From NCBI RefSeq assembly GCF_025490915.1, contig NZ_JANQBA010000010.1, positions 1 through 64,000 on the forward strand: DNA of 64,000 nucleotides, read 5' to 3'. A program made the translations under genes and the position numbers. Position 1 is the first letter of the stretch; each line of letters begins with the position of its first letter. This document shows positions 15,092 to 19,375 of this stretch, piece by piece. The stretch comes from Lacticaseibacillus parakribbianus. GTDB taxonomy: Bacteria > Bacillota > Bacilli > Lactobacillales > Lactobacillaceae. Below the pieces are notes generated by a model. That model saw only the letters and a list, made by a program, of their open reading frames with translations. It did not search any database and was not told the DNA's origin.

Positions 15092-16012
15092 TCACTTGCT
15101 GATGGTGGTGCCGATGACCTCGGTGTGGCCGTCCTGATAGGCGAACACCGCCCCCAGGTGGGTCGGGTCATCCAGCCAGCCCGGCACCGGGACCCCGGCG
15201 AAGAAGAGGCGCTTGGCCTCGAGCTCGCCTTGAATCGAGTCCTTGGTGAACACCGTGACGCCGGCCAGATCGGTCTGAAGCGGGTAGCCGGTGCGTGGGT
15301 CCATCAGGTGGTGGTACTTCTTGCCGTCTTTGACTAGGAACCGCTCGTAGATGCCGGAGGTCACGGCCGAGCAGGCAGGCAAAATCGTGCAGCCGAGATC
15401 GGTATGGCGGGACTTGCCGGGGTCTTGCACCCCGATCACCCACTTGCCGTCCTCGCGCCGCGGGGACTCGCCGACGAACAGCAGGTTGCCGCCGAGGTCG
15501 ATGATGCCGGCGGCGACGCCGTAAGCACCCCACAGCGCCCGGATCTGATCGGCGATGAAGCCCTTGGCGATGCCGCCGAGGTCAAGCTCCATCCCCGGCT
15601 GCGCCAGCTTCACGGTGTGGGTCTGGTCGTCCAAAACCACGCCGGAGGGGTCGCTCAAGGCCAGCCGGGCCACAATGGCCAGGTCGTCGGGCACGTTGGC
15701 GCCGGTGAAGCCGATTTTCCACAGCTTGACCAAGGGCCCGATCAGCGCGTTGAAGCCAAAGTCTTCGCGGCTGGCCGCCGCGGCTGTGCGAATCAGGCCG
15801 TACGTCGCGCTGGACACGGCCACCGCGGCGCTGCCGGCGGCGTGATTGACGGCCATCACCTCCGACTGGGCGCGGTTGACCGTCAAGCGGTCCTCCTCGC
15901 GGTTGATCAACGCCGCCGCGGCGTCAAGCGCCGCGTCGTCCAGCTCGCCGAACACGGTCAGGTTGATGCGCGTTCCCAAGGCGTGCAGGGTTTTAACTCG
16001 CTTCGTCGTCAT
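15092..16012 (-). CDS. apbE: FAD:protein FMN transferase ApbE (cytosolic form)
   Basis: The 306-residue protein has the ApbE architecture: an N-terminal strand HALGTRINLTVFG, the flavin-binding ELDLGGIAKGFIADQI (about 148-163), DLGGNLLFVGES, and the Mg-binding HHLMDPRTGYP. ApbE takes FAD and transfers FMN to Ser/Thr of Dxx(S/T)GA(S/T) motifs. There is no signal peptide or lipobox, unlike secreted ApbE of extracellular electron transfer systems, so the target should be cytosolic. Its start overlaps the stop of the PAS gene, which encodes six such motifs. This coupling makes the PAS protein the likely substrate. Confidence 0.95.
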   Translation of the reverse strand: MTTKRVKTLHALGTRINLTVFGELDDAALDAAAALINREEDRLTVNRAQSEVMAVNHAAGSAAVAVSSATYGLIRTAAAASREDFGFNALIGPLVKLWKIGFTGANVPDDLAIVARLALSDPSGVVLDDQTHTVKLAQPGMELDLGGIAKGFIADQIRALWGAYGVAAGIIDLGGNLLFVGESPRREDGKWVIGVQDPGKSRHTDLGCTILPACSAVTSGIYERFLVKDGKKYHHLMDPRTGYPLQTDLAGVTVFTKDSIQGELEAKRLFFAGVPVPGWLDDPTHLGAVFAYQDGHTEVIGTTISK

Positions 16013-16746
16013 TACAGATCGTAAGTGAACGGACCGGGCTTGCCCGCCGTGGCCGGGCCTTCGGAGGCGCCGCTGGTCGCATCGGCCTTCGGCGCCGCTT
16101 CTTCCTCGGAGGCGCCGCTGGTCGCATCAACCTTCGGCGCAGCTTCCTCCTCGGAGGCCCCACTGGTCGCGTCGACTGCAGGCGCCGGTGCGGCTTCTTC
16201 CTCGGAGGCGCCACTGGTCGCGTCGGCCGTCGGCGCTGGGGCGGCCGCTTCTTCGGAAGCGCCGCTGGTCGCGTCGACCGTGCCGGTCTTGCCGTCGGCC
16301 TTGGAGGCGCCGGTGGAGGCGTCGGACCAGCCGCCGTTTTCGTAGGCGGTCAAAATCGCTTCAACGGAGCCGGTGAACTCGATGGTGCCCAGGTAGGTGC
16401 CGTCGACGTCGCGCAGCGCGTAGTACTGGATGTAGACGCGGTGGCCGTGCATCATCAGCGGCCGGGCCACGAAGTCCCGGGAGCCATCCTTGAAGCTGTT
16501 GATGATGCCCATCACGACCGGCAGCACCCGGGCCGGGTGGCATTCCGCCACGGTTTCGTTGAGCTGATCGACCGTGCGAACGTGCTCGCGGTTCGGCTTG
16601 TTGGAGTACCACGTGAAGTGATCCGTGTGGTCGATCAGGTCGATTTCAAAGGGAATGGTGCTGAAAATCTGCTGCACCTCGGTCAGCGTCAGCCGGCCGG
16701 TGGGAAACTGGATGTAGGTGCCATCGTATTCTGGTTTACTCGTCAT
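16012..16746 (-). CDS. PAS-domain protein with six tandem ApbE flavinylation motifs
   Basis: The 244-residue protein has an N-terminal PAS-type domain (about 1-137; IPFEIDLIDHTDHFTWYSNK, a conserved ECHPARVLPVV segment, VYIQYYALRDVDGTYLGTIE) related to the DUF438/PAS_10 type. Residues 140-230 form a low-complexity tail with DASTGAS at 142-148 and DATSGAS at 158, 175, 192, 207 and 222, separated by Glu/Ala/Pro linkers. Each matches the ApbE acceptor motif, giving six candidate FMN-bearing serines (148, 164, 181, 198, 213, 228). No signal peptide or membrane helix is seen. The gene overlaps apbE. The FMN load is inference; the motif copies are seen directly. Confidence 0.88.
   Translation of the reverse strand: MTSKPEYDGTYIQFPTGRLTLTEVQQIFSTIPFEIDLIDHTDHFTWYSNKPNREHVRTVDQLNETVAECHPARVLPVVMGIINSFKDGSRDFVARPLMMHGHRVYIQYYALRDVDGTYLGTIEFTGSVEAILTAYENGGWSDASTGASKADGKTGTVDATSGASEEAAAPAPTADATSGASEEEAAPAPAVDATSGASEEEAAPKVDATSGASEEEAAPKADATSGASEGPATAGKPGPFTYDL
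16055..16325 (-). repeat. minisatellite-like repeat encoding the flavinylation motifs
   Basis: The unit containing GGAGGCGCCGCTGGTCGC (plus strand) recurs with small variations, at 45- to 51-bp spacing, through the 3' third of the PAS gene. Each unit encodes one Asp-Ala-Thr-Ser-Gly-Ala-Ser with an acidic linker. Such repeats can change copy number by slippage or recombination without breaking the frame. Confidence 0.85.
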
Positions 16747-16798: not shown

Positions 16799-16825
16799 AA
16801 AAAGCCCAGTCAACTGGGCTTTTTT
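16799..16825. terminator. terminator between the FAD synthetase and PAS genes
   Basis: AAAAAGCCCAG/CTGGGCTTTTTT with a 4-nt loop works in both directions. It lies right after the FAD synthetase stop, so the PAS-apbE pair is expressed by read-through or by its own promoter, which I cannot see clearly. Confidence 0.8.
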
Positions 16826-16826
16826 C

Positions 16827-17567
16827 TTATTCGCCGACCACCCGCAACTGCGCGGTGCGGCGCAAGAAACGCAACGGTCCAAGCCCCGCCGAGACCAGCT
16901 GCCCCGAAGCTGACACGTCCACCGTCACCACCCGGCCGAACCGGTCTTCTGCCTGGTAGCAGCCATTAGGAGGTAACTGCTGCAAGGCAGGCGACACAAC
17001 TTGGTACGGGTGGCCCAGCAAGGCCTCGGCGGCGGCGAACTCGCCGCGCCCGATCAGCTCGCGAATGCGGGTCGACGAAATTTTGAGGTGCGACGCGGTC
17101 AGCTTGGGCACCACCGTGGTCGTGAAGCGACCGGCGGCAAGCGCCGGCAGGGCGGCCGCCGTGGTGGTGCCGCCGCGGCCGAAGGTGTAGTCGAAGCCGG
17201 CCACCACCTGCTTGGCGCCAAGCGGCACCAGGCAGTCGGTCACGAAGGCCTGCGGGGTCAGCGCGGCAAAGTCGCGGGTGAAGCGCATCACGTACAGGTG
17301 GTCGACCCCAAGCTGGGCCATCAGCTCAGCCTTTTGGGCGACGGTGGTCAGGTAGCGGACGGGGCGGCCGCCGAAAACGGAAGCGGCGTGGCGGTCGAAG
17401 GTCATGACCGAAAGCGCCAGGCCGGACCGCCGCGCGGCCAGCCGCGCCGTTTCGATCACGCGCCGGTGACCGCGGTGAACCCCATCGAAGAAGCCAAGAG
17501 TCAAGACGCAAGGCGCGACTTTTGAGCGTTGCTGAAGCGATTGGTAATCGAGCGTCGTCACGTCCAT
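16827..17567 (-). CDS. FAD synthetase (FMN adenylyltransferase) lacking a riboflavin kinase domain
   Basis: The 246-residue protein shows the RibF nucleotidyltransferase domain: VLTLGFFDGVHRGHRRVIE (HxGH-like), VMTFDRHAASVFGG, VAGFDYTFGRGGT and the ISSTRIRELIGRGEF motif. It is shorter than bifunctional RibF (about 310 residues), and the C-terminal 60 residues lack the kinase motif with GFPTAN. It should convert FMN plus ATP to FAD. It starts 17 nt after pyruvate oxidase, an FAD enzyme, and precedes the PAS-apbE pair, whose ApbE uses FAD as donor. Confidence 0.88.
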   Translation of the reverse strand: MDVTTLDYQSLQQRSKVAPCVLTLGFFDGVHRGHRRVIETARLAARRSGLALSVMTFDRHAASVFGGRPVRYLTTVAQKAELMAQLGVDHLYVMRFTRDFAALTPQAFVTDCLVPLGAKQVVAGFDYTFGRGGTTTAAALPALAAGRFTTTVVPKLTASHLKISSTRIRELIGRGEFAAAEALLGHPYQVVSPALQQLPPNGCYQAEDRFGRVVTVDVSASGQLVSAGLGPLRFLRRTAQLRVVGE

Positions 17568-17584: not shown

Positions 17585-19375
17585 CTATTTGTTCTTCTTG
17601 CCGCTTTTCTTGGCAACGTCTTGCGCGAGTTGCGCGTCCTTGGCGTCCTTGAGGAAGGCGCGGAACGGCCGGAGTGCCTGGGCGTCGTACTTTTGCACGA
17701 ACTCATCGATCTGCTTTTGGTCCTGGTAGGCCGGATCGAGGAACATGTGCTGCGTGGTGAACGGCATCTTGTGCGTCAGCTTGACGTCGATGACCACCGG
17801 CAGATCCGTGTTCTTGGCATCGTCGATTGCCGCCTGGAACTCGGCTTTGTCGTGGACGGTGTAGGCCTTGGCGCCCATCCCCTTACCGATGGTGGCCCAG
17901 TCGGTATCCGGAATGTCGACCCCGGACAGCGGCTGGTGCGAGTCGTCGCGCTGCTCGGCTTCGATGAAACCAAGCGTGGCGTTGGAGAAGACGACGTTGA
18001 CGACGTGCAGCCCGTACTTGACCTGGGTCAAAATCTCCTCGCAAAGCATCGCGAAGCCGCCGTCACCGGACAGGGAGTAAACGTCGCGGTCCGGGTAGGC
18101 CACCTTGGCCGCGATGGCGGCCGGCAACCCGTAACCCATGGTCGCATACTTCCCGGAGGTGGTCCACTTCATCGTGTGCTTGATGTCCAAAAGCCGCTCG
18201 AAGTTGATGTTGACGTTGCCGACATCGATGGCCCAGACCGCCTTGTCGGACGCGGTCTTGTTCAGCACATCAAAGATTGGCTCCGGGCGAACCGGGGATT
18301 CGCTGGAATCCTTGAAGCTGTCCTGCCAGTCAACCCAGTTCTTCTTGTTGGCGATGCAGGCTTCGTAAAGCGGTGTCGCCTTGGACTCGGTGCCGGCCTT
18401 GTAGATCGCCTTCAGCGCTTCCTTGGCGTCGGCCAGGATGGCGACGTCGTTGTGGCGGCGCTTGCCCAGCTTGGTGCTTTCGATGTCGATCTGGATGACC
18501 TTGGCGTTCGGGTTGAACAGCATGCTGGCGAATGGTACGTCATTGCCGACCCACAGAATCAGGTCCGCGGCCAGCGCGGCCTCAACGCCGGGCTTGGGCG
18601 CGACGCGGCCGGTGGAGCCGAGGTAGGCTGGATAGTCTTCATCCAAAATGCCCTTGGCCAAAACCGAGGAGATCAAAGGCATCTTGTACTTCTCGGAGAC
18701 CTTGATCAGCTGCTTGCGGGCGTGCTTGGCACCCAGGCCGAAGTAGATGATCGGGCCCTTGGCCTGCTTGATCAAAGCGACGGCTTCGTCGATGCGAACC
18801 GGATCCGGCTGAATCGCGTAAGGCGTAATCTGGGTGTTGGCGTTTGAGACATAGTTGTCTTTGATCTGAGCCCAGCCGAAGTCCTTGGGAATCGTGACCA
18901 CGGCCGGCCCCTTCTTCTCGTAGGCTTCCTGAATAGCCTCATCGATCACCTTCGGCAGGCTTTGGGCCGTCATGACGGTGCGGTTCCACACCGCGACGTC
19001 GTTGAAGATTGGCTCTTCGTTCATCGCCTGGAAGAAGTCGATGTTCATGTTCTTGGAAGGCACCTGGGCCACAATCGCCAAGACCGGCACCCGGTCGATT
19101 TTGGCATCGTACAGCCCGTTGAGCAGGTGAACCGCACCGGGACCGGCGGAGCCGAAGCAGACGCCGATCTGGCCGGTGAGCTTCGCTTCCGCGGCCGCGG
19201 CCAAGGCACCGGCCTCCTCGTGGCGAACCTGAATGAACTTGATTTTGTCTTGCTGGTTGTGCAGCGCGTTCATCGTGGAGTCGAACGAGCCACCCGGGTA
19301 ACCGTAAATGTGATTGACGCCCCAGGATTCGATGACCTTGAGGACGGCGTCGGAGCCGCTGATTGTTTGTGCCAT
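17585..19375 (-). CDS. pox: pyruvate oxidase (TPP- and FAD-dependent)
   Basis: The 596-residue enzyme belongs to the TPP family (acetolactate synthase fold) and resembles lactobacillus pyruvate oxidase throughout: GVNHIYGYPGGSFDSTMNAL, the TPP-activating Glu in VRHEEAGALAAAAEAKL, the central FAD-binding region with IDIESTKLGKRRHNDVAIL, and the TPP-Mg motif GDGGFAMLCEEILTQVKY. It converts pyruvate, phosphate and oxygen to acetyl phosphate, CO2 and H2O2 in the cytosol. GGAGG lies 7 nt before the start. Putative control sites (19452-19465 and 19490-19507) lie upstream. Confidence 0.95.
   Translation of the reverse strand: MAQTISGSDAVLKVIESWGVNHIYGYPGGSFDSTMNALHNQQDKIKFIQVRHEEAGALAAAAEAKLTGQIGVCFGSAGPGAVHLLNGLYDAKIDRVPVLAIVAQVPSKNMNIDFFQAMNEEPIFNDVAVWNRTVMTAQSLPKVIDEAIQEAYEKKGPAVVTIPKDFGWAQIKDNYVSNANTQITPYAIQPDPVRIDEAVALIKQAKGPIIYFGLGAKHARKQLIKVSEKYKMPLISSVLAKGILDEDYPAYLGSTGRVAPKPGVEAALAADLILWVGNDVPFASMLFNPNAKVIQIDIESTKLGKRRHNDVAILADAKEALKAIYKAGTESKATPLYEACIANKKNWVDWQDSFKDSSESPVRPEPIFDVLNKTASDKAVWAIDVGNVNINFERLLDIKHTMKWTTSGKYATMGYGLPAAIAAKVAYPDRDVYSLSGDGGFAMLCEEILTQVKYGLHVVNVVFSNATLGFIEAEQRDDSHQPLSGVDIPDTDWATIGKGMGAKAYTVHDKAEFQAAIDDAKNTDLPVVIDVKLTHKMPFTTQHMFLDPAYQDQKQIDEFVQKYDAQALRPFRAFLKDAKDAQLAQDVAKKSGKKNK

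Follow-up and report, generated by a model that had tools for sequence, protein, structure and literature searches.

A Lacticaseibacillus PAS protein with six candidate ApbE acceptor motifs, encoded near apbE and a pyruvate oxidase gene

Introduction

In a 64,000-nucleotide stretch of Lacticaseibacillus parakribbianus DNA (contig NZ_JANQBA010000010.1; hereafter, the window), the gene for a PAS protein whose C-terminal tail carries six candidate flavin attachment motifs overlaps apbE, which encodes an FAD:protein FMN transferase (FAD, flavin adenine dinucleotide; FMN, flavin mononucleotide). Here we compare this locus with the closest described systems. Flavin attachment by ApbE is mainly explained as preventing the flavin from diffusing away outside the cytosol (PMC11334425). 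For a cytosolic protein whose disordered tail bears many sites, a different explanation would be required, for example service as a mobile, high-density electron relay.

In Lactococcus, FMN_red proteins were flavinylated by their cognate ApbE upon co-expression, and flavinylation was lost in Ala mutants (Huang et al., 2024, mSystems, PMC11334425). The window protein shares with them its occurrence in Firmicutes, a nearby apbE and motifs on an extended C-terminal region, which is unstructured in the L. lactis model. However, the Lactococcus proteins possess one or two sites, whereas the window protein lacks FMN_red, possesses six motifs and is encoded near pyruvate oxidase and FAD synthetase genes. 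The whole word "PAS" is absent from the main text of PMC11334425.

Multi-flavinylated proteins (Meheust et al., 2021, PMC8238504; Tong et al., 2023, PMC10339131) resemble the window protein in having several motifs or FMNs per chain, transferase genes nearby and a proposed role in electron transfer. These proteins are extracytosolic and contain several folded FMN-binding domains, whereas the sites of the window protein lie on a predicted disordered tail without FMN_bind. This class is characterized by more than one FMN-binding domain and by secretion or lipidation, and neither feature was found in the window protein (secretion was judged by eye). The cytosolic ApbE of Klebsiella and its soluble fumarate reductase (PMC12052999) are similar to the window pair in that the ApbE is signal-less and its redox target is cytosolic. 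The Klebsiella target is, however, a reductase, whereas the partner in the window is a PAS-tail protein in which no catalytic domain was found.

Thus, multi-flavinylated extracytosolic proteins and FMN_red proteins with one or two C-terminal sites are already known. Full-text searches of open-licence papers, a coverage outside which most subscription papers and preprints fall, revealed among the papers listed no stand-alone PAS protein that has several sites and is associated with a clade of pyruvate oxidase. In the excerpts of PMC10722498, which joins the terms ApbE, flavinylation and "PAS domain", the last occurs once, in a reference title. We propose, with a probability of about 50%, that the gene cluster in the window builds a cytosolic multi-flavin electron relay for pyruvate oxidase.

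The PAS protein and ApbE

The PAS protein, its parts and apbE are located as follows.

16012..16746, minus strand: PAS protein with six predicted flavinylation motifs, 244 amino acids (ORF call [ORF, open reading frame], Pfam, motif count)
16375..16674, minus strand: PAS_10 domain, amino acids 25-124 (Pfam, E = 1.8e-12)
16303..16323, minus strand: motif 1, DASTGAS, amino acids 142-148
16255..16275, minus strand: motif 2, DATSGAS, amino acids 158-164
16204..16224, minus strand: motif 3, DATSGAS, amino acids 175-181
16153..16173, minus strand: motif 4, DATSGAS, amino acids 192-198
16108..16128, minus strand: motif 5, DATSGAS, amino acids 207-213
16063..16083, minus strand: motif 6, DATSGAS, amino acids 222-228
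16015..16035, minus strand: C-terminal peptide GPFTYDL, conserved in pyruvate-oxidase-linked Lacticaseibacillus proteins
15092..16012, minus strand: apbE, cytosolic-type FAD:protein FMN transferase, 306 amino acids (PF02424, E = 5.6e-63; 7esa)

As a preliminary description of this DNA had reported, one DASTGAS and five DATSGAS copies are present, and the stop codon of the PAS gene overlaps the start codon of apbE; the overlap reads TAATG. Pfam searches of the PAS protein at E 0.1 detected PAS_10 only; FMN_bind, FMN_red (PF03358), DUF438 (PF04282) and any output or catalytic domain were not found. The PAS domain scored over the cut-off of PF13596 and has a PAS fold, which places it in PAS_10. 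In the predicted structure, the confidence score pLDDT (predicted local distance difference test) was about 95 for the PAS domain and about 47 for the tail. The tail is therefore predicted to be disordered, as judged by low pLDDT only, and the model, together with the Pfam result, agrees with the earlier suggestion of a flexible tail without folded FMN-binding domains. No hydrophobic leader was visible by eye on the PAS protein, whose chain starts with MTSKPEYDGTYIQFPTG, and no signal peptide or leader was visible on the apbE product (no signal-peptide program was run for either protein), consistent with the cytosolic setting that had been suggested. The product of apbE matched 7esa, a solved FAD:protein FMN transferase, over amino acids 7-275 (E = 4.1e-52), the regions LDLGGIAKG and YHHLMDPRTG aligned with this structure, and the protein belongs to PF02424.

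PAS domains are classic sensors. The preliminary description had raised the possibility that the PAS domain reads the redox state of the tail, for which we found no evidence. In a broader form of this explanation, the domain would detect a ligand or the state of the tail and would adjust the oxidase by binding it. In 45 aligned PAS rows, Cys69, His70 and Pro71 reach a conservation of 90% or more, and a structure search with the PAS domain returned, after a DUF438 pair, heme-, FAD- and ligand-binding PAS domains, both of which would suit a sensor; we assign no ligand to the domain because these structure matches have low similarity. However, Pfam revealed no output domain, four to seven acceptor sites would hardly be needed by a sensor, and species differ in how many sites they carry. 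We consider a function in redox sensing or regulation improbable.

Conservation of the motifs

When the last 104 residues were shuffled 20,000 times, no shuffled sequence contained more than two motifs. Among the 10 pairs formed by the five DATSGAS copies, we counted 20 synonymous and no non-synonymous codon differences. When 13 orthologue pairs were compared, key motif residues differed at 14 of 285 positions (4.9%), spacers at 188 of 607 (31%) and protein bodies at 237 of 3199; the pairs were hand-chosen, the window and L136 were used twice each, and the aligner may favor motif-to-motif matches. Synonymous codon change in the same pairs was 51% in motif residues, 44% in spacers and 36% in bodies. 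Lack of conservation of the motif residues in homologues had been named beforehand as one observation that would refute the proposal; the motif residues were kept and the spacers diverged. Thus, in these alignments the Dxx[ST]GA[ST] motif that characterizes ApbE substrates is conserved beyond background. The shuffles and the difference in divergence between motifs and spacers rule out a chance repeat or low-complexity tail. Recent duplication of one DNA unit is also unlikely, since the repeats differ synonymously and the motif is constant.

The DNA pattern of the motif matched the own genome of the window at 60 positions, compared with 47 for a reversed control, and single matches are therefore mostly due to chance. 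Same-strand matches at most 400 bases apart occurred at three places in the genome only, namely the window (6 matches), C12 (5), where they belong to an FMN reductase-PAS fusion, and C28 (2), where they belong to a protein with FMN_bind domains.

Relatives of the PAS protein were drawn from the best 80 of 164, which correspond to 77 distinct loci with 83 PAS-bearing ORFs. The motif number is not fixed at six, and relatives have 1 to 7. Counts for these loci allow the relaxed pattern D..[ST][GS]A[ST]; the strict pattern gives one stand-alone protein fewer with four motifs and leaves two fusions with a single motif. Huang et al. (2024) demonstrated flavinylation of FMN_red proteins from Lactococcus that have motifs on C-terminal extensions, and it is therefore very likely that ApbE also flavinylates the serines of the motifs in the window protein.

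Coincidence of the PAS protein with its ApbE

ApbE of the window type (at least 65% identical, all others being at most 48%) was present in 14 of 30 genomes of the genus. This type and a multi-motif PAS protein coincided in 30/30 genomes, in that 14 possessed both and 16 neither. The probability of such a coincidence would be about 7e-9 if the genomes were independent, a value that is only a guide because the genomes are related. The dedicated substrate-enzyme pair postulated in the preliminary description is thus supported, with the cognate ApbE in 14/14 genomes that have the multi-motif PAS protein and in 0/16 of those that lack it. The preliminary description had also suggested a test for apbE as a neighbor of multi-motif PAS_10 relatives. 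An apbE was present in the same locus for 32 of 36 FMN_red-PAS fusions, which turned out to be the commoner form; in genome G008, apbE and the PAS gene are located on different contigs. Since the genes sit on separate contigs in some genomes, as in G008, the link between enzyme and substrate exceeds neighborhood. The ORF starts of relatives were set mechanically, and some ApbE ORFs (L103, L105 and L106) were drawn too long.

In G008, the cognate apbE (L197:6191-8141) adjoins a gene for an AraC regulator 86% identical to that of L079, and neither an oxidase nor a PAS gene was found at this locus, which reads as if it were a remnant of a lost cassette. The genome retains an FMN_red-PAS fusion elsewhere.

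The neighboring oxidase

Four minus-strand genes lie in a row in the window, in the order SpxB-type pyruvate oxidase, FAD synthetase, PAS tail protein and apbE. The first two and the element that follows them are listed here.

17585..19375, minus strand: SpxB-type pyruvate oxidase of the PAS-linked clade, 596 amino acids (TIGR02720, 1pox, clade tree, identity gap)
16827..17567, minus strand: stand-alone FAD synthetase, RibF-like, without riboflavin kinase domain (PF06574, E = 4.2e-45; PF01687 not found)
16799..16824, minus strand: hairpin in the interval from the FAD synthetase gene to the PAS gene, with an 11-bp stem and a T run (sequence, and fold of about -16 kcal/mol)

The oxidase scored 858.4 bits against TIGR02720, above the equivalog cut-off of 637.85, and matched the pyruvate oxidase structure 1pox (E = 4.7e-163). 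Among 18 motif-bearing stand-alone PAS proteins (17 in relative loci and that of the window), 12 are encoded by a pyruvate oxidase gene and five by a lactate-oxidase-like gene; in the latter set, the PAS gene directly precedes the gene for the lactate-oxidase-like FMN enzyme. When oxidases of the genus were listed to E 1e-100, 10 copies in 10 genomes were at least 80% identical to that of the window, and all 10 adjoin a PAS gene (one of them, in G006, is split into two ORFs); all other listed copies were at most 59% identical. A tree was built from 30 oxidases, 11 linked and 19 unlinked. The linked ones, two of them from Bifidobacteriaceae, formed a single group with support of 100/100; the 19 unlinked ones were taken from 48 unlinked oxidases over the cut-off, and the split oxidase of L099 was left out. 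There were 46 fixed differences between the 11 linked and 16 unlinked oxidases after three long-branch rows had been dropped, to which we attach no meaning.

The two Bifidobacteriaceae loci (L110:1559-8361 and L113:2778-8881), which are from metagenome-assembled genomes (MAGs), contain ribF, the oxidase, an AraC regulator, the PAS tail protein and apbE in that order. The PAS protein of L110 has two PAS domains and seven motifs, and the contig of L113 also carries rpoB, the best PDB matches of which are entries that we take to be actinobacterial. The sequence GPF[TNDS]YDL forms the C-terminal end of the PAS protein in 9/9 pyruvate-oxidase-linked Lacticaseibacillus loci and in the window, although the preceding repeats drift. 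It was not found in L110 and L113 nor in the five lactate-oxidase-linked proteins. As judged from this sequence pattern, GPFTYDL is a possible docking peptide.

The second FAD_syn match of the genome shares one open frame, at C4, with the sole flavokinase match. The FAD synthetase of the window is therefore an extra copy. The neighbors of the PAS gene, which encode FAD synthetase, an oxidase of an FAD-using family and an FMN transferase, together with up to six sites on a small protein, could also indicate that the tail stores covalent FMN as a reservoir or buffer, with FAD synthetase and ApbE managing the flavin supply of the oxidase. However, a store requires neither a conserved PAS domain nor fusions to FMN_red and to a fumarate-reductase-like domain. 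Further, modification by ApbE is called irreversible (PMC12052999), and stored flavin would therefore be released only by protein breakdown. We regard storage as a very improbable function.

The hairpin between the FAD synthetase and PAS genes may be a terminator or attenuator, although the terminator rule of the promoter/terminator scan did not list it. A similar hairpin is present in L. kribbianus (L099), and none was found in L100, L101 and L104 within the 23-24 bases spanning the stop codon to the start codon.

Fusion proteins in the PAS family

Among the kept loci, 36 of 57 non-DUF438 PAS ORFs were FMN_red-PAS fusions. Two to five motifs were present in 35 of them, and the motif-less one is cut by the end of its locus (L143). 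Of the 21 stand-alone ORFs, 17 had two to seven motifs; of the four without motifs, one is a piece of the broken gene of L. camelliae and the others are from L151, L153 and L173. None of the 26 DUF438-type ORFs had a motif or an apbE in its locus, in contrast to the window protein, which has both. The DUF438 domain was found in L096, a motif-less relative. The architecture thus rules out an ordinary DUF438 sensor, despite the similarity to DUF438/PAS_10 proteins (3cax, 2qkp).

Secundilactobacillus collinoides/paracollinoides encode proteins of 1020 and 1022 amino acids (L114:6419-9481 and L115:6419-9487, both plus strand) with FMN_red, PAS_10, motifs, FMN_bind and FAD_binding_2 in one chain. 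From their domain order, these are possible one-chain NAD(P)H-driven fumarate-type reductases, in which NAD(P)H electrons would reach a fumarate-reductase-like site via tethered flavins. Fusions that join FMN reductase, PAS tail and a fumarate-reductase-like domain support a relay role of the PAS-tail unit. In related proteins, this PAS and tail are joined in one chain with an NAD(P)H-FMN reductase, and in one type the chain continues into FMN_bind and fumarate-reductase-like domains. The family thus suggests that this unit is a general flavin relay, the electron donor or acceptor of which varies from case to case.

The same fusions raise the possibility that the stand-alone protein is also driven by NAD(P)H. 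An FMN reductase encoded elsewhere would load the tail, which would deliver electrons to another reductase, and the proximity of the oxidase gene would reflect co-regulation under aerobic or flavin-rich conditions rather than contact. The number of fusions, their frequent association with apbE, the fumarate-reductase-like FAD domain at the end of the Secundilactobacillus protein and a five-motif fusion encoded in the own genome (C12, L043) are all in line with this explanation. However, no FMN reductase gene was labelled in the cluster of the window or in oxidase-linked relative loci, and the stand-alone type goes with one particular clade of pyruvate oxidase, with which it recurs in the Bifidobacteriaceae MAGs. 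We consider an NAD(P)H-driven relay rather unlikely for the stand-alone protein.

A possible electron relay for pyruvate oxidase

In the relay that we propose for pyruvate oxidase, FAD synthetase would supply FAD, which serves both as the cofactor of the oxidase and as the FMN donor of ApbE, and ApbE very likely modifies the final Ser of all six tail motifs with FMN. The PAS domain, perhaps together with GPFTYDL, would dock on the oxidase, and the tethered FMNs would swing to its reduced FAD and accept its electrons. The presumed direction of electron flow in the oxidase clusters would be from FAD to the tail. Pyruvate would then be converted to acetyl phosphate with less direct transfer to O2 and less hydrogen peroxide (H2O2), and another acceptor would empty the reduced tail. 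In favor of the proposal are the overlap and coincidence of the PAS gene and apbE, the conserved motifs on a tail of low pLDDT, the link to one oxidase clade that extends to the Bifidobacteriaceae MAGs, the extra FAD synthetase, the fusion proteins, the motif-less PAS genes beside pyruvate:ferredoxin oxidoreductase-like genes described below and the flavinylated Lactococcus proteins.

In a wider and more tentative form of the proposal, which we doubt somewhat, the protein would act as a cytosolic "flavin brush". Its small docking domain would bear four to seven covalent FMNs on a disordered tail, and it would accept electrons from a dedicated pyruvate oxidase clade and, as a paralogue, from a lactate-oxidase-like enzyme. 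Oxidases that form peroxide would thereby become dehydrogenases and supply a flavin circuit, and this cassette would recur in two bacterial phyla.

Several observations weigh against a relay for the oxidase. Gene neighborhood alone is no demonstration of electron transfer, and none of the genes in the cluster encodes an acceptor that could empty the reduced tail. Most motif-bearing members of the family are FMN_red fusions, the loci of which contain no oxidase match, and a stand-alone protein with two motifs (L143) has neither a pyruvate oxidase nor a lactate-oxidase-like neighbor. In L. kribbianus, the linked oxidase consists of two overlapping ORFs (L099:4375-6164), and the PAS and apbE ORFs are whole. 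The lactate-oxidase-like gene scored 368 against TIGR02708, below the cut-off of 645.5, which was reached by no gene of the 30 genus genomes. The T-run hairpin in the window and in L. kribbianus implies that the two halves of the cluster may be expressed apart. Further, in a PAS tree of 48 rows (part of those available; the broken L145 was left out, the root is open and branches are long), the Bifidobacteriaceae PAS domains fell outside the Lacticaseibacillus stand-alone group (14 proteins, support 98/96). Their oxidases lie inside the linked clade, and the histories of PAS protein and oxidase may therefore differ.

SpxB-type pyruvate oxidases and lactate oxidases make H2O2 in other lactic acid bacteria. 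This background would fit a tail that speeds the reduction of oxygen, for oxygen removal or for peroxide production. Reduced SaFMN3, a multi-FMN protein, reacts with oxygen and can consume it (PMC10339131), and by analogy the reduced tail may simply react with oxygen, which also counts against a relay. However, such oxidases reduce oxygen unaided, and the genus has many pyruvate oxidases of the unlinked kind, among them a copy at C31 of the own genome. An oxygen-consuming or H2O2-making accessory is, in our view, very unlikely.

Should the tail truly receive electrons from the oxidase, the cytosolic flavin circuit so formed would be of a new kind. The association with a single clade of pyruvate oxidase provides a testable partner and could alter the understanding of acetyl phosphate, ATP and H2O2 yields in Lacticaseibacillus. 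The set of pyruvate oxidase, FAD synthetase, PAS tail protein and ApbE is compact and could be rebuilt in E. coli.

Distribution and related loci

Motif-bearing members were found in Lacticaseibacillus, Secundilactobacillus, Limosilactobacillus (including L. reuteri), several Lactobacillaceae MAGs and the two Bifidobacteriaceae MAGs. Ten loci of other genera of the order (L082-L091), which were picked because an apbE match lay nearby, encode more distant FMN_red-PAS fusions by apbE with 0 to 3 strict motifs, and some distant fusions bear DxxSSAS-like variants instead. Such fusions by apbE also occur on Lactococcus lactis and Enterococcus faecium plasmids. In the L. lactis plasmid cluster, apbE and an FMN_red gene accompany the gene for an FMN_red-PAS_10 protein that has two DATSGAS motifs at its end. 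On the E. faecium plasmid (L097:2435-6543), the genes for a regulator, ApbE, FMN reductase and an FMN_red-PAS protein lie between IS1216 copies, and the tail motifs are DAVSSAS or DAVTSAS.

In two Lacticaseibacillus genomes (L202:1963-5328 and L203:2367-5201), a gene for a motif-less PAS protein of 149 amino acids lies between pyruvate:ferredoxin oxidoreductase-like and FMN reductase genes, and each of the three proteins shares 82-90% identity with its counterpart in the other locus. Finally, the C28 locus of the own genome (L177:2248-6594) contains an NADH-dehydrogenase-like gene, a gene for a two-site FMN_bind protein and apbE, the products of the latter two having lipoprotein-like starts. 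From its gene content it looks like an extracellular electron transfer locus, presumably resembling that of Listeria, and the own genome would therefore have both kinds of flavinylation.

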